Shown here one piece after another: positions 2 to 33,922 of a stretch of 41,288 nucleotides of DNA. Under the pieces are notes generated by a model. The model was given only the letters and a program-made list of their open reading frames with translations, was not told where the DNA came from and searched no databases. The translations under genes and the position numbers were made by a program. Each line of letters starts with the position of its first letter. Position 1 is the first letter of the stretch. The stretch covers positions 1 through 41,288 of IMG/VR virus record IMGVR_UViG_3300025168_000193, one strand, 5' to 3'. The DNA is from a virus.

Positions 2-3000
2 AAGACTTTTTCTTTAGTCCCCGAATTTATGCAAGCTGCAAATGATGTATTAAGTCAGGATTTACCAGCAGATGCAAGAAGAAGAGTAACAAAAGAGAGT
101 GTTATAGGTACAGTATTAGGAGGTAGCTTAGGCATATTATCGTATGGTACAGGGTTAGTAAAAGGGGAGGCTATTAATGCGGCTCAGAGGCTAGAAATTG
201 GAGCAGCTGGGTTTATTAGCGAGGTTTTCTTATTTACAGCAGGTGATTCATACCTAAGAGGCGAGTCTGTTACTTGGGAGAAGTTTGAACACGCAGCTTT
301 TACAGTAGGCGGATTAAAAGTAGGTGGCGGATTTAGAGGAGCCATAATGAAAGGCAAGGCTCCATTTGCAGAAGATGCGAGAGATATAGGCGAGGTTTCA
401 AAAATAGGATTGAAAAAAGTAGGTGTTGATGTAGATAAAATTTTAGAAAAAACAGAGATTACCATTGAGCTAACACCTGAAGAGTTGGAATCATTGCTTA
501 CAGCGGGTAGTTTTACTCCAGAAACAGCAGCTGAAATAGGCTATTTTACTACCGAGGCTGCTGGTGATTATCTAAAAGGTTTATCTGGACCAGAAAGGTC
601 GAAGCTAATTAAAAACAAAAAAATCCCAGTTACATTAAAAGAAAAGATAGTTGAAATTGTTACAGGAAAACGACCAGAATTCTTACAGAAGATATCAGGC
701 GTTAAGACAACAGAAAATTCAGATGGCACAGGCTCTGTTACTATCCTTAATGAAAGAGGCGAGGTATTACAAATAGAGCAGTTTTCAAGTTCATCACGAG
801 CTAAGGATGTAGGTACTCGTATATGGCAGAATATAGAAACAGCTAAGAAGTTTGCAGACCTTGCTGGGCTTCCAATAGAAAAACGTGGGGCTCTTGAAAA
901 CAAAATGAGTGCTAGGAATCTTGTTTCTTCTAAGGTTAGTGAAGCAATGATTACCCTTCCAGAGTTTAGAAGCGCAGACCAGAAAAAGCTTGTAGCACAG
1001 TTTGATGAAATATCAGAGCAGTTTGTAGAGCGAGAAGCTAAAAAGGTAGCAGAGGCAGAAGCTAAAGAGCCTACAGAGGAGGTTACAGAAAAGGTTACAG
1101 AAGAGGTAGCGCCTAAAGAGGATGTTGTAGAAAAGGTGGATGTAGAAAAACCTGCACCAACTGGTAAGGCAGCGGTGCCGAAAGACGCAGCCGATTTGCC
1201 AAGAGATATAATCGATGTGTATAGCGAGGGGGGTGTTCAGGATTTACAAAAAGAGTTTCCTGATATCGATACAGATGCGGTAGCTCCAATACTGGATAAT
1301 CTTTTTGCTGAATATGATGCTGGGGAAAAAAGCGGTGAGGGAGTTCGTTATGAAGTTTTGAAATCAATAAAAAAAGAAGCAGAAAAGATTGGTTATACGT
1401 TTGAGATTCAAATATCCGACGGAAGGAGCTCCCCGTTTTTTTACTTTAGAAAAAAAGATATTCCAATTAATCAAATTGAGTTGAGGAAAGAGAGGGATTT
1501 GAGGGAAAGTGAAAGAAAAAATGAGGAAAGAAAAAAGAAAAATATAAAAGAAGCTGAAAAGCTGACTTCTGAAAGCAGAATACTGGAGGGCGAACTTCGA
1601 AGTAAAATAATAAAAGGCGAGGGTGGCAAGTTTAAAAAAGACGATTTAAAGGTATTTGAAGATGAGGCAAAACTGAGCGATAAGGAGTTTTTTAAAAAGG
1701 TTTTTGAACGTCAGTTAAGAGCAACTGAGTTATCATTTGGTAAAACAGGAGTTACGAGGCAGCAGTTGACTAACGAAATAGCTCCCTTGGAAAATATATT
1801 ATATTCAGACAGAAAGGATATAGTTGATTTTTATGAAAAATACCCATTAGTAATGTACAGTAGGATGCGAGAGCTTCAAGCATTGTATTCAATTTTGGCT
1901 AACAGGGAAGTGGTTATGCATTACGAGAACATAGATATTGATAATCCTAAAGAGTATCAGCGTTTGTCGCCTATGTATGATAGATTAGAGAAAGCTCGAA
2001 TGGTGTGGGATAAGAGAAAAGTGGATGCTGCAACAAGGGAGGATTACGAAAGAGCCGAAATATATAGGAAGCTATCGGATACCATAAAAAAGGGAATCGA
2101 TAAGGCTTTTAATGCAGTTCTGTTTAAAAAGGATTTGAATAAAATCCTAAAAAAGCTCGATATAGAGCCAATAAAAGGGCAGGTAGTTGGAGATAAAGAT
2201 GTGTTATACCAGAAGCAAGATACAGAATTAGATAAGTATTGGGGAGGTTTATTAAGAGGACAACCTGAATCGCAAAGAAGAGTTACTGTAAGAAACTATA
2301 GTTCTGCTGGCGCAGAAGCAGCGAGGTTGAGAGCTATAGATATGCTGGGCGAAAAAAATGTAGGCGAAATACAGCAGACACGGGATATGCGAGGGCAGTC
2401 TGAGTTTATATTTTCAGCTACAAAACCAGAGGTAGCACCTACACCAGAGGCAGAGCCTACGTTGAAAGGTATGGTTCCTTACGAGAACATACGTTCAAAG
2501 AAAGATTTAGCAGTTGCACTGGAGGATATCTTCAACATTTCTAAAGAAAAAGCACAAGCCGATGCTGAAATATTCGATTCCGTAGCAGAAACGTGGGCAT
2601 CGAAAAGACCAGGAAAAACAAAAGAAGATTGGTATAAAGAGAAGATAGCACAAATACGACAAGGCTTAATAGGGGGCGAGGAGATATTATATCAGGAAGT
2701 AGGACCAGGCTTAGATATTTACGAAACTGCAACAAAAGCATTAGCTAAGATAAAACAAAACAAAGCTACATCTCAGCAGTGGAAGAGTATGCTTTTAAAG
2801 AATGGTGCAAAAAAATCTGAAATGGATTTCATTGGGCTAACTGACTTCCTACTTGACAATCCTAAGCTTACTAAAGAGCAAATATCCGAGTTCTTGAGCG
2901 AGAACAAGCTAGAGGTTATAGAGGTATTGAAAAGCGGCACGCCAAATAAAGATAAAAGAGAACTAGATAAAACTGTAGGCGAGATAGAGGAGCTGACTGC

Positions 3001-6000
3001 TACAGAGATACCAAACCTCTTAGAAGAACTGGATGCAGAGTATCCATACACCCCCTTTAGTGACGTAGCTTCGACTATAGCAGACTCCTTCGATAAGACT
3101 CAGGTGCTTACGAGCGACCCTCTTCCTGGAGAAAAAGCTTTTAAAATTGATTTTGTTAAAAGAGCTATAACCGCTGAAGACAAAGCACTTAGAGTACGCG
3201 AGATGGAAAAGCTTTCAAAAAACCTGGGGTATGAAAACATAGATGATTTCATTAAAGATTCTATGATATCTTATTTGGAAAATAAAAAAGCAAGGTCAGA
3301 GGAGGCTTTCGACACTGCGAATCGGCTTGGATATTTACAAGAAGTAAAAAATGAAGGAGCAAAAGAAATAGCATTAGTAGACTATATAAGAAGCCTTCTT
3401 CCTAAAGATTATAAAATAAAACTTGAACGTAGACCTGTAGTTCACGATGGCGGTGCTAAACTTATTAGCAATATTAAAAGTAGTCTAAGGACAACATACA
3501 ACGAAGAAAAGGTTACAAGCGCAGACCAGCTATTAGGAAAAGGAAAAGTTTTTTCGCCTGAGTTTAGGGAGGATGTTTTAAGAGAGCTCGATAAAGCTTT
3601 AAGGAGGAGTTCTTTAGCAACACAGCAAAACTGGGAGATAAATACATTTATAAATGATAACAAGCCCCCAACCAAAGATATGTTTAAAGTCCCAGAAGCG
3701 GATGATATGGAAGCGATGGGTGCAAAATTAAATTTAGCAGGGAAGGAACTTGCACCATATGAAAAATATATAGATTGGTCTGAAAAAGGAGAAGACGGAA
3801 AACCAGGGGTATTCAAGTATCTATCAAGTGTAGGAACGAAGGATAAAATCGGTATGGAACGAGAGATGGGTCTTAGCAGCACTTCGGAATTAGTTATTGA
3901 TGCCTTTGAGAAACTAAAAAAAGCACAAGAAACAAAAAGGGAGTTGCGAAAAAAAATAGGGGAAGATAATCTAGGCGAAGATGCTAGGTTTGGAGCCTAT
4001 TCATTAGCAGGTGGCAAGAAATATCGAGAAATGCTTTTCTTGACACCACGCCCAAAACAAAAAAGTGTACCTAACGTGCATTGGACTGAAGATAACGTTA
4101 TGGCACATATGCGTTGGGATGAAAGGTCGGATATAGAAAGAAACAGGGTAATGCACATTGGTGAGATTCAAAGCGATTGGATGAATCGGGGAAAGGCTGG
4201 AGGCTTTAAGCTAACGACAGAAGAAAATAGGGAAAGGACTTTAATAATTCGTGAAAGTGAAAAAGAAATAGAGCGGATAATATACAACGAGGCTTTATAT
4301 GCGAAAGGCAAGAAACTCGAAGAAGTGCAAAAAAGACTAAGCGACTTGAGGGAATTGGTATCTAATTTGCGTGAATCGACAATGAGTGACGGGGATACAC
4401 CACGTTTGGCTTTTCATAAGGACTGGTATGTGGTTGTATTGCAACGAGCAATAAAATATGCTGCAGATAATGGCTTCGATAGGGTAACGTGGGATGAAGG
4501 AATAACGGAAGCTATACGTAGTGGTGGAGGCAGAGACGATAACCCTATTTTAACAAGAGTTAAGGTAATGCTTGGAGATGATGGAAACTTATCGGTATCT
4601 TATAAAAAGGCAGATAGAGAAACTGGGGTTACTGAGCCAGATGATATGGAGCTACTTGGATTTGATAAAGAAACACAATCAGCAGAGCCAAGGACAAGTA
4701 TGGTTTTTAAAGATACCCCAGAGCTCGAAAAAACTTTTGGAAAGAAAGCAGTTAAGCAGATAATCAATGAGCTCCGTTCCCAAGCAGCAAAAAGAGGGGA
4801 ATGGATAACAGTAGAGCTAGATGAGCCTACAATGATAGGATGGGAGACAAGACGAAACTTCTATGATGTTATTCTACCAAGTGCTGCAAAAAAGATAGGC
4901 AAAAAGTTTAATTCCAGAACAGGTAAAACTGAAGTGCTTACAGGTACAAAAAGGGGTAGGGAAAGTATGGGTAGGGGTTTCTGGTTTAAGCATAAAGAAG
5001 GCACAGCACCTGCACACTATATAGATATAACACCTCAAGTAAAAGAGTACTATAGCTCAAGCAAGCTGTTAAGGCAAGACAAAAAAGCTGCAATAACTTT
5101 CGATAAAGAAGGAAAGGCTATTATATCTGCGCTTACAAATCCTAATTTTGTTTCCCCATTACACGAGCTGGTTCATATGTTTGATTCGGATTTAAATATA
5201 AGGGATGCACAAAATGTATTAGATTGGGCAAAAGAAAAAACGTGGAATATTAATACAAGAGAGAGGTTTGCCAGGGCTTTTGAATTGTATTTAGAAGAAG
5301 GGAAAGCTCCGAATGCAAAATTGAAAAGTGTATTTGAGAAGTTTAAAACTTGGCTTAAGGATGTATATAAAGGTGTAATTCGCTACCTTGGTAAAGATGT
5401 TAAGCTTACTGATACAATAAGAGATATATTCGATAGGGTATTAACGCCAGAAGAAAAAGGAAGGATATCTGAAAAGATAGAAGATGTAGTAGAGGGCTTC
5501 GGTGGATTGAAAAGATTCGCCCAAAAAGGAGAAAAAGGACCACTATTCCAAGATGGAGGAAAGAAGCTTACTGCCTTTCAGTTAAAAAAAGCAATGATAA
5601 AAACTGTTGCTGAAAGAGCAGAGCGGGTAGCAAAAGAATCTGGGATTCGAGATAAGAAAGACCTTATTGAAGCCCTGAAGAAAGAATATCCAGGCAACTC
5701 TAATGTTAATAAAGGAATGAGAATCTTTATTGATACCAACCAGGATGTTATAATTAAAAAAATGGGGAAGGTTAGTGTCGATATACCTGAAAAAAAGGTA
5801 ACAGAAGAAGAGGCAAGAACCATTAATTTTCTTAGAACATTAGATGCTTTCGAGTATGGGGTTCCAATAGAAGATATAAAAGCAGGGAAGCTAGAAGTTA
5901 ATCTTCCATCTTTTAAAGCGGCTCGTACCTTTAAGGCGAAAAAAGCAAAAGCAAAATCAGAAAAATTGCAATCAGAGTTTGATAAGCTACAAAAAGAAGC

Positions 6001-9000
6001 GGGATTACCAATAAAAGAAATAGATGCAATAAAAAATAAAAAAGCCAAAGACAGGACAGCTGCTGAAAAGAAAAAGCTTAATCAGTATAGTAACTTTGTA
6101 GATAGAAAAAGACCAAAAGAGATTAGGAGAGAGATACGGGAACAGCAGAATATAATAATAAATGAGAATTCGAGCAGCGTAAAGCAATCCTTAAAAGACA
6201 CATTTAATAACAAGGTTAGCAAAGCAATAGAGACTATGGAATCCCAGATAGCAAAAGGGGAAGATGTTAATCTTGATATGTTAAGTGCTAATAGAATAGC
6301 AAAAGCCGTAATGGCAGTTGTGGGGGATATAAATTATGCAATAGATTCGGCTGCAAGTTTCTTAAAAGGGTTAGATAAAAATAGGAATGACAAAAAAGTT
6401 ACGCCTGCCAAGCTAAAAGATATCGTACTAGAAGAGCTTGGTTTTGATAAAGAAAAAGATAGGTTAAGGCAAGCATTAGGTATAGAAGATAAAAACCGTT
6501 CAGAGATAGGCGAGTTGTTTGATATGCTCGATAATGAGTTAGGCAATGTTCCAAAAGGCACAGACCTTGGCAATATAAAAACAAGAATTATAGAGTTTGC
6601 TAGTAAAAAATCTGTTGAATTCAAAGCTACGAACCTAAGAAAAAAAGAACTTGCAAGCTTAATATCTAAGTTGAAAAAAGCAAAAACCCCAGATTCACTT
6701 AGAGAATCTATGGAGGACTTAAAAGAGCTTATGAAGAAGATAGCTGCAAGGAACATATACCAAAACCTTGATAAGCTACACGCAAAAGCTAAGAAAAATT
6801 ATAAGAAAAATAAGTTTCTTGATTCATCTGGCTTTCAGAATGACGTGAGAGAGTTCTTGTTATTAAAGGCATCAGATATACCTACAGAAATGCTGTTTAA
6901 TTATATGGATGTGTTATCAGAGCTAAGCGTATCTGATAGGCTTCCTGTAACTACAGCATCAAAAGTTCAAAATTTTAACCTGGCTACCGCAGCAGTCAGA
7001 GAGAAAAAACTACAGGAAATGGCTCTCGATGCCTTAGAGGCGGCAGAAGCAAAAGAAGGTAAAGAAAGTGAAACTCAAGAAAAGTTAAAGGCTGTTCTAA
7101 AGGAGGAGGCAGATATTAAAATAACAAACCTAGATGTTGATAAGTCGATGTTAAGCAAGATGGGTAGGGATATTTATGATGATATAAAAAGCATAACCTT
7201 TGATGAAATGAAAGAGCTTAGTACGGGACAGCTTAAGGTTTTAAATAATGGATTAACTCTTTTGGGTCAAGGTCGTTTAGCGCCAAAGCTTGTAACAGAT
7301 GTATTAGATAAGGTTATTATTCCTAATAGAATTGCCAAGGATGCAAAAAAGGGAATGGCTGGTTACATAAAAGATGAAGCAGGGATAAGCAAGACTTTTG
7401 CTAGCGATATTTTTGATTACTTCAATGGTTTAGCCGAGCCTACTATTGAGAACAAAGAGAAGCTAGCTAGTACTCTAAGTAGATTATCCCCAGATTTATT
7501 AGATAAGTATTTTAGAAATGCTAATGGAGCTCTTTTTTCAAGTATCTATAAGCCACTCGAAGCAGCACATAATGAAGTTCAGCAATTCACGGATAAAGAG
7601 GGTAGTGAAATAAGGATAGCATATAGAGATTTAGCCAGCCCATTAATAAGAAAAATGGGTAAAATATCCCCAAGAGTTTTTGGTGGGCTAAAAAGTAGAA
7701 CTCGCTCCAATATAAAAATCGATATGCTGATGAAGCAAATTGAGTTTGAAGCAGAGGGTGGCGAAGGGAATGTTTTTAGAAAAATATTTGGAGAAGAAGG
7801 CGGAGATACAGGACTTGCTATAAGTAAGTATCGTGGCTCAGAGGCAGAAGCTTTACTTTTAAAAGATGTCTATGAAAAACTACCAAGAAAAAATGGGGAT
7901 GTAGATTGGAAAACTGTTGAAAGCAGCTTAAGTAAGGGAGAGAAAAAGCTTATAGGTATACTAAGAAACATTTTCGATAACGAGTTGCTTGAAAAAGCAA
8001 TAGATGCCAATCTATATGGAAGGGGAGAGCCCTTAAAGAGGATTTCTATGTATAGCCCTAGAAGAAGAATGGAGACAGGGGATGCTGGAAAACAGGCAAC
8101 AGGAGAAGAGCAGTTAAAAGAAATACTAGGAGAAGCATCGTATGAGACGCCAGTAAAAAGCACTAAGGCTTCAGCAACTTATGAAAGAAAAAAAGGGGAA
8201 GAGACACCTTCAAGATGGCTGGATATAGATGCGATATCTAATGCTCACAGGGCTATATTCCAAATAAATAGAGATTATTTCTTGGGAAGAGTTATAAAGC
8301 AAACATTCAATGCACTTGATATATTAGAAAAAGGAAGCGGTAAAGATACCGCAGAGCAAAGAATCTATTCGCAATTAAAAGAATCCCTAAGGGCTACCTT
8401 GAAAGGGGAGTTTTCTGTAAGTGGTACTTTAGGAGAAAGAAGGCTTTCACAACTAATTAAAACAAGGGCAAGACACATAGCCCTTGCACGCCCTTTAAGA
8501 CCTATCATAGAGGCGGGAACTAACCTTACAAGAATTGTAACGCACCCAGAGATATCTAATATGGAAGCCCTAAAAGCACTTGGGGAATTGACAGATAAAA
8601 ATAAAAGAACAGAGTTTAACGCTATTTTGGCTGAAATAAAAAGCCCTGTACTTAGAAGGATAGGAACTTATACTGGCGAAACAGATGCGTCGAAAATAGA
8701 AAGCGGGCTACAGTACATTAAGGAGCAAGGAGTTAAGCCAACTACGAGAAAAGTTCTGCCAGTTTTAGAAGGTAGCGGAACAAAAACAAGATTAGCAAAA
8801 GGAGCAGGTCAAGAAATAAAGGAAAGAGTTTTAGATTTTATGCAGTTGTCTACTATGAATCAATTAGGGGAGGCTGTTAATTCTACTATAATTAGAGCAG
8901 GGGATGCTCATACTGTAAGAATGGCTTGGCTAGGTGCTTTAAAAACAGAGTATAAAAAACAAACAGGCAAAGATGTAACTATAGATACATTTAAAAATGA

Positions 9001-9997
9001 AATGAAAAACAACCCTACTGCTATGAAGCAAGCAGTTGATGTAGCAGAAAGAGTAGCCGCAGAGACACATATAGGCTCATCCCCTTTATCTCAGCCTACA
9101 ATTATGAAGCGTGGCACTGAAGTAGGGAAAGGCAAATGGGGAAAAAGCGATACCTTTAAGGAGTTAAATTATTTTTTAGGCTCGTTTGGACTTCACGAAA
9201 GTATGAGGTTTTCTGTATTGCTACGTGACTTTGTAAAGGGAGGCAGTAAATCTTCTAGGGCAGAGTCGGCTTGGCAAATGGGCGGTATGATTGGAGGAAA
9301 TATGTTTTATCTGTTTGGTACTCAGATTTTATTAAATGCTGCACTCGTAGGTGTGCTGAAGTTTTTTGGAAAGGAAGAAAGCGAATGGTCGAAAGATTAT
9401 TCTAAAAGGCTATCTAAGCAAATAGAAAGTGGCGAGTATTGGGTAAAAAACTTTTCTATGGCAACTCTTCAGCTTTTAATAGGTAAGTATGGTACGGTAT
9501 ACAGATACCCTCTTGCTATAATAGCAGAACATATGAACAAGCTTAGGTACGAGAAAGGTTTAACTTTCGATAAAAACAAAGAGTATGATGAATTCTTAAA
9601 TGCTATTGCATACAAAGCTAATGCAGAAGATTTGTCCGATATCGATATGATGCGTTTTGCAGGTGCAATTAATGTTGTAGCTGATGGGTTGGAGTATAAA
9701 AGAATAACAGAGATAATATCTAAAGTTAGTAAGGGAGAAAAGTTAAGAGCCGATGACCAAGAAAGATATTTAAGATTAGTTGTCTTAAGGGCAGTTATGA
9801 ATGCTACATTAAGCGCACCTATAAGCGGAGAGCTTAATAGGGCTTTTAAGAAAGGGATATCAAAAGCGAAAGGAAGTTATACAACTGGAAGCTCAAAAAG
9901 CATAATGAATTCATTTGGCTTTGGTAGTTCAAGCAAAGAGCGAGGCACAAATAGGGGCGGACAAGATAGAAGCGTAAAAAGAGGGACAGGAAGATAA
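2..9997 (+). CDS. Giant phage polyvalent protein with zincin domain (5' partial)
   Basis: The frame is open to the left edge, so the true start may lie outside; the first ATG is at base 29 and residue numbers count from it (3322 aa). Visible in order: a glycine-rich hydrophobic N-terminus (about 25-105); an acidic Glu/Lys/Val linker (about 335-393); a module with QQWKSMLLKNGAKKSE and GLTDFL (about 890-990); a domain with HWTEDNVMAHMRW, EIQSDW and NGFDRVTWDEG (about 1350-1491); a zinc-metallopeptidase site H1712-ELV-H1716 with probable third ligand E1752 in ERFARAFELYLEEG; long Lys/Glu-rich helical stretches; and a hydrophobic segment near 3081-3114. The QSDW/GFDRV and zincin modules are recurrent in large polyvalent proteins of phages, which are thought to be delivered into the host with the genome. 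Packaging and injection here are inference. The gene fills almost a quarter of the window and is followed by virion-type genes. Confidence 0.85.
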   Translation, partial: KTFSLVPEFMQAANDVLSQDLPADARRRVTKESVIGTVLGGSLGILSYGTGLVKGEAINAAQRLEIGAAGFISEVFLFTAGDSYLRGESVTWEKFEHAAFTVGGLKVGGGFRGAIMKGKAPFAEDARDIGEVSKIGLKKVGVDVDKILEKTEITIELTPEELESLLTAGSFTPETAAEIGYFTTEAAGDYLKGLSGPERSKLIKNKKIPVTLKEKIVEIVTGKRPEFLQKISGVKTTENSDGTGSVTILNERGEVLQIEQFSSSSRAKDVGTRIWQNIETAKKFADLAGLPIEKRGALENKMSARNLVSSKVSEAMITLPEFRSADQKKLVAQFDEISEQFVEREAKKVAEAEAKEPTEEVTEKVTEEVAPKEDVVEKVDVEKPAPTGKAAVPKDAADLPRDIIDVYSEGGVQDLQKEFPDIDTDAVAPILDNLFAEYDAGEKSGEGVRYEVLKSIKKEAEKIGYTFEIQISDGRSSPFFYFRKKDIPINQIELRKERDLRESERKNEERKKKNIKEAEKLTSESRILEGELRSKIIKGEGGKFKKDDLKVFEDEAKLSDKEFFKKVFERQLRATELSFGKTGVTRQQLTNEIAPLENILYSDRKDIVDFYEKYPLVMYSRMRELQALYSILANREVVMHYENIDIDNPKEYQRLSPMYDRLEKARMVWDKRKVDAATREDYERAEIYRKLSDTIKKGIDKAFNAVLFKKDLNKILKKLDIEPIKGQVVGDKDVLYQKQDTELDKYWGGLLRGQPESQRRVTVRNYSSAGAEAARLRAIDMLGEKNVGEIQQTRDMRGQSEFIFSATKPEVAPTPEAEPTLKGMVPYENIRSKKDLAVALEDIFNISKEKAQADAEIFDSVAETWASKRPGKTKEDWYKEKIAQIRQGLIGGEEILYQEVGPGLDIYETATKALAKIKQNKATSQQWKSMLLKNGAKKSEMDFIGLTDFLLDNPKLTKEQISEFLSENKLEVIEVLKSGTPNKDKRELDKTVGEIEELTATEIPNLLEELDAEYPYTPFSDVASTIADSFDKTQVLTSDPLPGEKAFKIDFVKRAITAEDKALRVREMEKLSKNLGYENIDDFIKDSMISYLENKKARSEEAFDTANRLGYLQEVKNEGAKEIALVDYIRSLLPKDYKIKLERRPVVHDGGAKLISNIKSSLRTTYNEEKVTSADQLLGKGKVFSPEFREDVLRELDKALRRSSLATQQNWEINTFINDNKPPTKDMFKVPEADDMEAMGAKLNLAGKELAPYEKYIDWSEKGEDGKPGVFKYLSSVGTKDKIGMEREMGLSSTSELVIDAFEKLKKAQETKRELRKKIGEDNLGEDARFGAYSLAGGKKYREMLFLTPRPKQKSVPNVHWTEDNVMAHMRWDERSDIERNRVMHIGEIQSDWMNRGKAGGFKLTTEENRERTLIIRESEKEIERIIYNEALYAKGKKLEEVQKRLSDLRELVSNLRESTMSDGDTPRLAFHKDWYVVVLQRAIKYAADNGFDRVTWDEGITEAIRSGGGRDDNPILTRVKVMLGDDGNLSVSYKKADRETGVTEPDDMELLGFDKETQSAEPRTSMVFKDTPELEKTFGKKAVKQIINELRSQAAKRGEWITVELDEPTMIGWETRRNFYDVILPSAAKKIGKKFNSRTGKTEVLTGTKRGRESMGRGFWFKHKEGTAPAHYIDITPQVKEYYSSSKLLRQDKKAAITFDKEGKAIISALTNPNFVSPLHELVHMFDSDLNIRDAQNVLDWAKEKTWNINTRERFARAFELYLEEGKAPNAKLKSVFEKFKTWLKDVYKGVIRYLGKDVKLTDTIRDIFDRVLTPEEKGRISEKIEDVVEGFGGLKRFAQKGEKGPLFQDGGKKLTAFQLKKAMIKTVAERAERVAKESGIRDKKDLIEALKKEYPGNSNVNKGMRIFIDTNQDVIIKKMGKVSVDIPEKKVTEEEARTINFLRTLDAFEYGVPIEDIKAGKLEVNLPSFKAARTFKAKKAKAKSEKLQSEFDKLQKEAGLPIKEIDAIKNKKAKDRTAAEKKKLNQYSNFVDRKRPKEIRREIREQQNIIINENSSSVKQSLKDTFNNKVSKAIETMESQIAKGEDVNLDMLSANRIAKAVMAVVGDINYAIDSAASFLKGLDKNRNDKKVTPAKLKDIVLEELGFDKEKDRLRQALGIEDKNRSEIGELFDMLDNELGNVPKGTDLGNIKTRIIEFASKKSVEFKATNLRKKELASLISKLKKAKTPDSLRESMEDLKELMKKIAARNIYQNLDKLHAKAKKNYKKNKFLDSSGFQNDVREFLLLKASDIPTEMLFNYMDVLSELSVSDRLPVTTASKVQNFNLATAAVREKKLQEMALDALEAAEAKEGKESETQEKLKAVLKEEADIKITNLDVDKSMLSKMGRDIYDDIKSITFDEMKELSTGQLKVLNNGLTLLGQGRLAPKLVTDVLDKVIIPNRIAKDAKKGMAGYIKDEAGISKTFASDIFDYFNGLAEPTIENKEKLASTLSRLSPDLLDKYFRNANGALFSSIYKPLEAAHNEVQQFTDKEGSEIRIAYRDLASPLIRKMGKISPRVFGGLKSRTRSNIKIDMLMKQIEFEAEGGEGNVFRKIFGEEGGDTGLAISKYRGSEAEALLLKDVYEKLPRKNGDVDWKTVESSLSKGEKKLIGILRNIFDNELLEKAIDANLYGRGEPLKRISMYSPRRRMETGDAGKQATGEEQLKEILGEASYETPVKSTKASATYERKKGEETPSRWLDIDAISNAHRAIFQINRDYFLGRVIKQTFNALDILEKGSGKDTAEQRIYSQLKESLRATLKGEFSVSGTLGERRLSQLIKTRARHIALARPLRPIIEAGTNLTRIVTHPEISNMEALKALGELTDKNKRTEFNAILAEIKSPVLRRIGTYTGETDASKIESGLQYIKEQGVKPTTRKVLPVLEGSGTKTRLAKGAGQEIKERVLDFMQLSTMNQLGEAVNSTIIRAGDAHTVRMAWLGALKTEYKKQTGKDVTIDTFKNEMKNNPTAMKQAVDVAERVAAETHIGSSPLSQPTIMKRGTEVGKGKWGKSDTFKELNYFLGSFGLHESMRFSVLLRDFVKGGSKSSRAESAWQMGGMIGGNMFYLFGTQILLNAALVGVLKFFGKEESEWSKDYSKRLSKQIESGEYWVKNFSMATLQLLIGKYGTVYRYPLAIIAEHMNKLRYEKGLTFDKNKEYDEFLNAIAYKANAEDLSDIDMMRFAGAINVVADGLEYKRITEIISKVSKGEKLRADDQERYLRLVVLRAVMNATLSAPISGELNRAFKKGISKAKGSYTTGSSKSIMNSFGFGSSSKERGTNRGGQDRSVKRGTGR

Positions 9998-31862: not shown

Positions 31863-32195
31863 CTAACTATCTGGCTGATAAACCTTAGCACGCTCACCTA
31901 AATACTTGAAGGTTGCATATAACGTATCGTGCTCCTTAACGATATTTTCGTCAACTGCTACCTCTGTATTTATAGCCTCTTGAAACGTCACAAAACCTGT
32001 CTTACGATTTTTTACGCTACCAAGTGATACCCAGTGCCACTGGTCTTCTTGCTTATTTCCTCCAACATTTGCATTTGCTCTAACTAAAACAAAAGGTCGA
32101 TTAGAGCTTGTTTCTAGCGTATAGAACTTGCTCTCTGAAGTTTCAGTTATGGCTTTTACATCCACTGGTGGAAGTATGTTTACAATTTGTATCAT
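31863..32195 (-). CDS. Small phage protein, possible paralog of the next gene (110 aa)
   Basis: Beta-rich: FYTLETSSNRPFVLVRANAN, then QWHWVSLGSVKNRKTGFVTF and a helical end. The WHWVSLGS segment parallels WCWVSPGS in the neighbouring protein, each followed by a similar F-x-x-x-x-A helix, suggesting duplication. The inner ATG (MIQIVNIL) is preferred over one 11 codons upstream because of its A/T-rich leader. Function unknown. Confidence 0.55.
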   Translation of the reverse strand: MIQIVNILPPVDVKAITETSESKFYTLETSSNRPFVLVRANANVGGNKQEDQWHWVSLGSVKNRKTGFVTFQEAINTEVAVDENIVKEHDTLYATFKYLGERAKVYQPDS

Positions 32196-32251
32196 AACAT
32201 ATTTTTTTAAATTAGTACTATGTATCAACCTTCGCCTGATACCATTGGCGA

Positions 32252-33445: not shown

Positions 33446-33631
33446 TTAACCTACTCTTCCGCATTTCGGACATTGCTCATCAGGGTATAACATAAAATTG
33501 CTACAATGCGAGCATTGATTCACTTTATCTATAGGTACATAATATGTAACCTTGTCAACAATAAAGCTATATCCTAATAGCCAAAAGGTATTAGCCTCAC
33601 GTACCTCGTTATTTTCAATTATTATATCCAT
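33446..33631 (-). CDS. Small zinc-ribbon protein (61 aa)
   Basis: A short beta part (FWLLGYSFIVDKVTYYVPID) ends in a compact zinc ribbon CSHCSNFMLYPDEQCPKCGR. It is the first protein gene downstream of the 129-base tRNA-like element. Function unknown; such ribbons usually bind nucleic acid or protein. Confidence 0.6.
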   Translation of the reverse strand: MDIIIENNEVREANTFWLLGYSFIVDKVTYYVPIDKVNQCSHCSNFMLYPDEQCPKCGRVG

Positions 33632-33651: not shown

Positions 33652-33780
33652 TAGCGCAGTAGGGAATCGAACCCTAATTTCTGATGGTACTTCCTCTTGC
33701 TTGCTTGCTTATTAAAGCCTAGCAAAGAGACGTGCATATTTCAACACTCCAGCTTCCTATTCCAATTAGAAGACTGCGCC
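33652..33780 (-). ncRNA. tRNA-like RNA with expanded anticodon/variable region (129 nt)
   Basis: Clear tRNA features: 7-bp acceptor GGCGCAG/CTGCGCT, D-arm stem TTCT/GGAA with loop AATTGGAATA (A14, A15, GG and A21 equivalents present), and T-arm TAGGG-TTCGATT-CCCTA joined directly to the acceptor. No CCA is encoded. Between D and T arms lie 76-77 bases instead of about 22. A possible anticodon stem CTGG/TCAG brackets the extra DNA, with GTT in anticodon register on the 5' side, and the insert contains a strong hairpin beginning CTCTTTGCT and closing with AGCAAGAG. This could be a tRNA with a very short insertion, a degenerate tRNA or a tRNA mimic. Confidence 0.5.
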
Positions 33781-33796
33781 AAATACTGACATAGTA

Positions 33797-33922
33797 CTAC
33801 CCCCCCAGACTCAAAAATATAAAAGATAAAAGAGCCACAAGGGATAGCATTATGAATTTAAACACATTGACAACTTTAAACTTAGGCGTGTCAATTGCCC
33901 GAATAATTGAATGTAGTATCAT
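33797..33922 (-). CDS. Tiny single-pass membrane protein (41 aa)
   Basis: Cytosolic-looking start MILHSIIRAIDTPKFKVVNV followed by one membrane helix FIMLSLVALLSFIFLSLGG. Starts 10 bases after the previous tiny gene and ends 16 bases before the tRNA-like RNA. Part of a run of three tiny membrane proteins. Confidence 0.5.
   Translation of the reverse strand: MILHSIIRAIDTPKFKVVNVFKFIMLSLVALLSFIFLSLGG

Follow-up and report, generated by a model that had tools for sequence, protein, structure and literature searches.

Which kind of gene occupies the minus strand between positions 33652 and 33780 of the window (the whole stretch of 41,288 nucleotides from IMG/VR record IMGVR_UViG_3300025168_000193), where an RNA with the outline of a tRNA lacks a recognizable anticodon arm? 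Read 5' to 3', the element has the structure GGCGCAG-T-C-TTCT-AATTGGAAT-AGGA-(78 nt)-TAGGG-TTCGATT-CCCTA-CTGCGCT-A (Table 1). All seven pairs of the acceptor stem can form (one of them is G-U), and U8, a D-arm with GG and a T-arm with a TTCRA loop are present, as in a decoding tRNA. CCA is not encoded, which is true of many tRNA genes. In 300 first-order Markov shuffles of the whole window (both strands) the combination of acceptor, U8, D-arm and T-arm was found 0.013 times per shuffled window, and acceptor plus T-arm alone 0.61 times. The canonical arm geometry described in the initial annotation was thus upheld, and its proviso that the three arms might have arisen by chance was not, given this expectation and the tRNA-Glu character of the D-arm (see below). 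A second contig, IMGVR_UViG_3300001450_000936, matches this region at 99.9% identity and has the same element, which therefore does not stem from an assembly slip in one record.

Table 1. Location of the tRNA-like element, its parts and neighbours in the window, and of related features in other phage records (L numbers denote records)
Feature	Location	Strand	Remarks
Whole tRNA-like gene, tRNA-Glu-derived (positions 1 to 73)	33652..33780	-	assigned by arm pattern and D-arm match
5' acceptor strand GGCGCAG, positions 1-7	33774..33780	-	7/7 pairs with 33653-33659
U8, C9 and D-arm TTCT-AATTGGAAT-AGGA with A14, G18G19	33755..33773	-	common to ordinary phage tRNA-Glu(UUC)
78 nt in place of anticodon arm and variable loop, from A26 up to the T-stem	33677..33754	-	no recoverable anticodon arm
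CTGG, putative stem, 5' half	33749..33752	-	one base off positions 27-31; at background level
Small predicted hairpin GUGU-UGAAAUAU-GCAC	33732..33747	-	not significant against shuffles
Larger predicted hairpin, including AAGC tetranucleotide repeats	33693..33730	-	z of the 78 nt, -0.29
TCAG, putative stem, 3' half	33681..33684	-	not above background
T-arm TAGGG-TTCGATT-CCCTA	33660..33676	-	T-stem fully paired, TTCGA loop
3' acceptor strand CTGCGCT and A73	33652..33659	-	A73 at 33652; CCA not encoded
41-aa hydrophobic ORF	33797..33922	-	ends 16 nt upstream of the RNA gene
61-aa ORF, CxxC...CPKCG zinc-ribbon-like motif	33446..33631	-	starts 20 nt downstream of the RNA gene; sub-threshold zinc-ribbon matches
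R1 tRNA genes, contigs	L046:5023-5142, 5215-5333, 8991-9105; L115:12095-12210; L038:1441-1556; L064:8968-9083; L087:3530-3645; L011:4145-4268
R1 tRNA genes, Aeromonas phage APT65 (OP491958.1)	84396-84518, 84110-84223, 81362-81474
R1 motif array and Ro60-like vWA protein	L167:1590-1872 and 1872-3278 (APT65); L046:5393-6940; L191
Skunavirus armless tRNA-likes	L004:896-943, L192:628, L193:491, L194:417, L196:393, L197:552		unannotated as RNA in the records examined

ARAGORN with introns and Rfam, both proposed as checks in the initial annotation, did not recognize the element. ARAGORN, run with and without introns in several modes, reported no tRNA there at its normal threshold. Lowering the threshold in the intron, mitochondrial and tmRNA modes yielded only spurious candidates at 50-60%. 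Rfam assigned no family at the gathering threshold or up to E 10, and the element scored 14.4 bits with the tRNA model RF00005, below the cut-off of 29. These results could speak for a chance resemblance in a sequence that never descended from a tRNA, an idea that is hardly credible in view of the low expectation for the combined arms and had already been disfavoured by a D-arm identical to that of phage tRNA-Glu(UUC). Assignment to a known Y-RNA-like or tmRNA-like family, suggested by the tRNA-like domains of both, is very improbable: no YrlA or tmRNA match above chance was detected at the element up to E 10, and a 9.5-bit match to the permuted-tmRNA model covered 17 positions that coincide with the T-arm. 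Moreover, the element has C3-G70 as against the alanine G3-U70 of tmRNA, and neither a Ro60/TROVE nor a phrog_850 gene was found in the window's record, which may be incomplete.

The D-arm pointed to the origin of the element. A scan of 2.9 million viral contigs for the D-arm TCTAATTGGAATAGGA followed by the T-loop motif GGTTCGA returned 14 stretches. One is the near-identical copy of the window element; the others are 13 ordinary tRNA genes, of which 12 are tRNA-Glu(TTC) and one was called as tRNA-Leu(GAG). The full D-arm TCTTCTAATTGGAATAGGAA was also present in several ordinary tRNA genes from the viral-contig scan, and the ordinary tRNA-Glu(UUC) of Cellulophaga phage phi38:1 carries TCTTCTAAATGGAATAGGAA, one base off. 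Since TCTTCTAATTGGAATAGGAA is the signature of ordinary phage tRNA-Glu(UUC), the element is derived from such a gene, a descent that the initial annotation had not proposed. The simplest reading is that the source was a tRNA-Glu gene of a Bacteroidota phage. This is supported by a 575-aa protein of the window, which has kin among the proteins of Cellulophaga phages and huge phages, and the host is probably a marine member of the Bacteroidota. The ordinary genes (phi38:1 and IMG/VR contigs L130, L134, L138 and L142) share with the element the D-arm, U8, the canonical T-arm and the 7-bp acceptor, but in them a normal anticodon arm of 17 nt, containing CTTTCA, stands where the element has its 78 nt. 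In the phi38:1 record the tRNA-Glu(UUC) gene (L129:395-470) and a tRNA-Pro gene (314-386) are both missing from the annotation, the tRNA-Glu being covered by the entry for a hypothetical protein.

The distance of 78 nt between D-stem and T-stem compares with about 22 nt in a normal tRNA. The initial annotation had recorded this expansion, which is real, as 76-77 nt, and had suggested that extra DNA may lie inside the anticodon loop. Whether the 78 nt contain an insert resembling an intron, removal of which would give a normal tRNA-Glu, was examined by a splice test, in which one block was removed and the remainder had to form a 5-bp anticodon stem with a 7-nt loop and U33. No solution was obtained, even though the variable loop was allowed to range from 3 to 22 nt and the frame was tried at four offsets. 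When one mismatch was allowed, the arm CTGGA-GTGTTGA-ATCAG with 4 of 5 pairs and a 55-nt insert could be drawn. This best candidate lies one base off the tRNA frame (positions 27-31 would be GCTGG), contains an A-A mismatch and would read GTT, not TTC; arms with 4 of 5 pairs and U33 occurred in 78% of shuffled middles. The CTGG/TCAG stem seen earlier is thus present in the sequence, but out of frame and at shuffle level. The presumed strong internal hairpin did not hold up either, as 73 of 200 shuffles folded as well as the 78 nt (z -0.29); the whole RNA gave a z of -1.05. The remark that the insert is too short for a group I intron was right: it is far below that size, and no Rfam intron match was found at the element. 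No copy of the 78 nt was detected elsewhere in the window. The sequence TTGAAA in the small hairpin is complementary to the tRNA-Glu loop TTTCAA, a weak observation for a 6-mer within 78 nt. Because the splice test failed and the hairpins are no better than those of shuffled sequences, the anticodon arm is replaced, or diverged beyond recognition, and not cleanly interrupted. Of the phrase "tRNA mimic or insertion remnant" the descriptive sense survives, whereas a clean insertion is unsupported.

Interrupted-looking tRNAs do exist in other phages. A scan for the D-loop TCTAATNGG with GGTTCGANTCC downstream of it at an atypical spacing gave at least 120 viral stretches, and among the matches listed a structural filter retained 21 tRNA-like genes of other phages, spanning 96-160 nt and rejected by ARAGORN. 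A clean splice solution was found for 14 of these 21, each on a shuffled background of 0.35-3.4%, and none for seven. One tRNA-like gene (L093:7552-7671) has a second T-arm-like sequence, AAGGTTCGAATCCTT, nested in its middle, as though one tRNA had been partly inserted into a second. In a further one (L105:8247-8360) the internal hairpin loop TGGAAG is complementary to a downstream CTTCCA, a possible pseudoknot.

Eleven inserts in phage tRNA genes, from contigs L011, L038, L046 (three), L064, L087 and L115 and from the isolate Aeromonas phage APT65 (three), could be aligned as one RNA family, designated R1. The inserts are about 43-50 nt long, lie in the anticodon stem or loop, and their host tRNA genes were missed by ARAGORN. 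The 4-bp hairpin of the motif is paired in 44 of 44 alignment cells, and each of its four pairs shows two-sided changes; its loop opens with UG, and C(A/U)GCA stands about 5 nt further on. The contig inserts interrupt the anticodon stem at 28|29 or 29|30; once R1 was removed, a perfect anticodon arm was left in all eight contig cases, with Asp, His, Thr, Glu and Arg anticodons restored. Of the APT65 inserts (read by eye), one restores the stem but leaves C33, and two lie in the anticodon loop, where the junction is ambiguous. The window element does not belong to this family as judged by sequence: its insert scored 2.9 bits with the R1 model on its own strand and has no hairpin with UG and C(A/U)GCA. 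This low score, together with the failed splice test, makes an interrupted tRNA-Glu improbable.

R1 motif arrays were also found directly upstream of a gene for a vWA protein, PHROG 850 (Pfam DUF2828/DUF7788). The six best PDB matches of its AlphaFold model, which is of modest confidence (pLDDT 64), were Ro60 structures, the first being that of Thermus phage phiLo, so the protein is predicted to be Ro60-like. PHROG 850 was present in 6 of the 25 records searched and an R1 match, four strong and two weak, in all six. This co-occurrence is no more than suggestive, since the motif had in part guided the choice of records. The partners of bacterial Ro60 are Y RNAs, and YrlA has a tRNA-like domain (PMC7790460). 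The R1 inserts may be spliced, or they may serve as Ro60-binding sites of tRNA-Y RNA chimeras; both are candidate readings. RtcB was absent from the four records searched. The window contains neither the R1 motif nor PHROG 850. No description of R1 inserts was found in a limited search of the open-access literature, and the family looks more important than the window element itself.

The RNA gene fits exactly between two small ORFs of the same strand (Table 1). Relatives were sought in IMG/VR through the terminase, the helicase, a peptidase and the 575-aa protein, and only the near-identical IMGVR_UViG_3300001450_000936 was recovered. Searches that combined the element's acceptor with a longer middle gave one unrelated-looking element of a 299-kb phage among viral contigs (L006) and, among genome contigs, five GC-rich sequences that match by chance and are not tRNAs. 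With the same D-arm and an expanded middle the window's copy was found; the other hits were judged from their spacing and CTTTCA-type loops to be tandem ordinary tRNAs.

Two readings carry most of the weight. The first, a tRNA-shaped non-decoding RNA gene that arose from phage tRNA-Glu(UUC) and was kept as a tRNA mimic, is tentatively favoured over the others discussed here, at somewhat less than even confidence. It accords with acceptor, D- and T-arms that showed no defect at any position checked, in contrast to the missing anticodon arm, with the lack of a splice solution that 14 of 21 odd phage tRNAs (among the matches listed) do possess, with the tRNA-Glu(UUC) signature, with the Bacteroidota-phage kinship and with the exact fit between the flanking ORFs. 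It is weakened by its single lineage, by the unremarkable fold of the 78 nt, by the missing CCA (common as this is) and by the fact that a recent tRNA-killing replacement would look identical. Such a relic, a tRNA-Glu gene that was inactivated when a single replacement or rearrangement struck its anticodon region and whose other parts have not yet decayed, is a serious and only slightly less likely alternative. The restriction to one lineage, an insert without significant structure that includes an AAGC repeat tract, and the loss of anticodon arms from other phage tRNAs agree with it, and the intact state of all other tRNA features does not.

Comparison with other phages bears on both readings. 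In Lactococcus skunaviruses a tRNA-like gene of 47-48 nt, with acceptor, D- and T-arms and no anticodon arm, was found in 6 of 8 records. Its acceptor has changed with pairing kept (AGCAGTA/TACTGCT, AGCGGTA/TACTGCT and AGCAGTA/TGCTGCT), and such conservation across diverged phages argues against a mere relic. In these genes the arm is absent, whereas that of the window element is replaced. A 17-nt deletion has taken the anticodon arm of tRNA-Pro in skunavirus Phi43 (L194:177-230) and left the acceptor, D- and T-arms, which is a precedent for a relic. The 299-kb phage IMGVR_UViG_3300050014_000823 (L188) has a 57-nt armless tRNA-like at 32182-32238 and a 104-nt expanded one at 97360-97464. Phages have thus more than once lost or replaced an anticodon arm and kept the remaining arms intact. 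This recurrence argues for function in some cases, but is no proof of it for the window element.

If the element is a mimic, the anticodon arm and variable loop of tRNA-Glu(UUC) would have been replaced by the 78 nt, not merely interrupted. The RNA would be transcribed together with its small-gene neighbours, cut by RNase P at the acceptor, supplied with CCA by the host enzyme and retained as a stable molecule. It could then occupy tRNA-handling proteins that act on the acceptor/T-arm side, while offering no anticodon to decode or cut. The likeliest benefit would be as a decoy that diverts host or defence enzymes acting on tRNAs, or as a scaffold carrying the loop domain. If expressed, such a phage RNA would keep the parts of a tRNA held by enzymes and dispense with the part used by ribosomes and anticodon nucleases, which suggests a decoy against tRNA-based defences. 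The wider proposal, that the element is a decoy or scaffold RNA and one case of recurrent anticodon-less phage mimics directed against such defences, is speculative and rather unlikely as it stands. Genes of this kind are probably under-counted, because standard tRNA finders miss them.

Two cellular RNAs invite comparison. The pseudo-tRNA tRNA-Other of Bacillus cereus functions outside translation and has been proposed as the tRNA-like element of a larger RNA (PMC3399842); it resembles the window element in being tRNA-shaped and non-translational, but is cellular and retains an anticodon arm with a Trp anticodon. The bacterial Y RNA YrlA has Ro60/Rsr as partner, whereas the element's record has no such protein and the element no Rfam match. 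YrlA is a bacterial precedent for a mimic: its tRNA-like domain is left uncut by a tRNA-cleaving nuclease of Salmonella, and it has been suggested that it could act as a competitor of tRNA for enzymes (PMC7790460).
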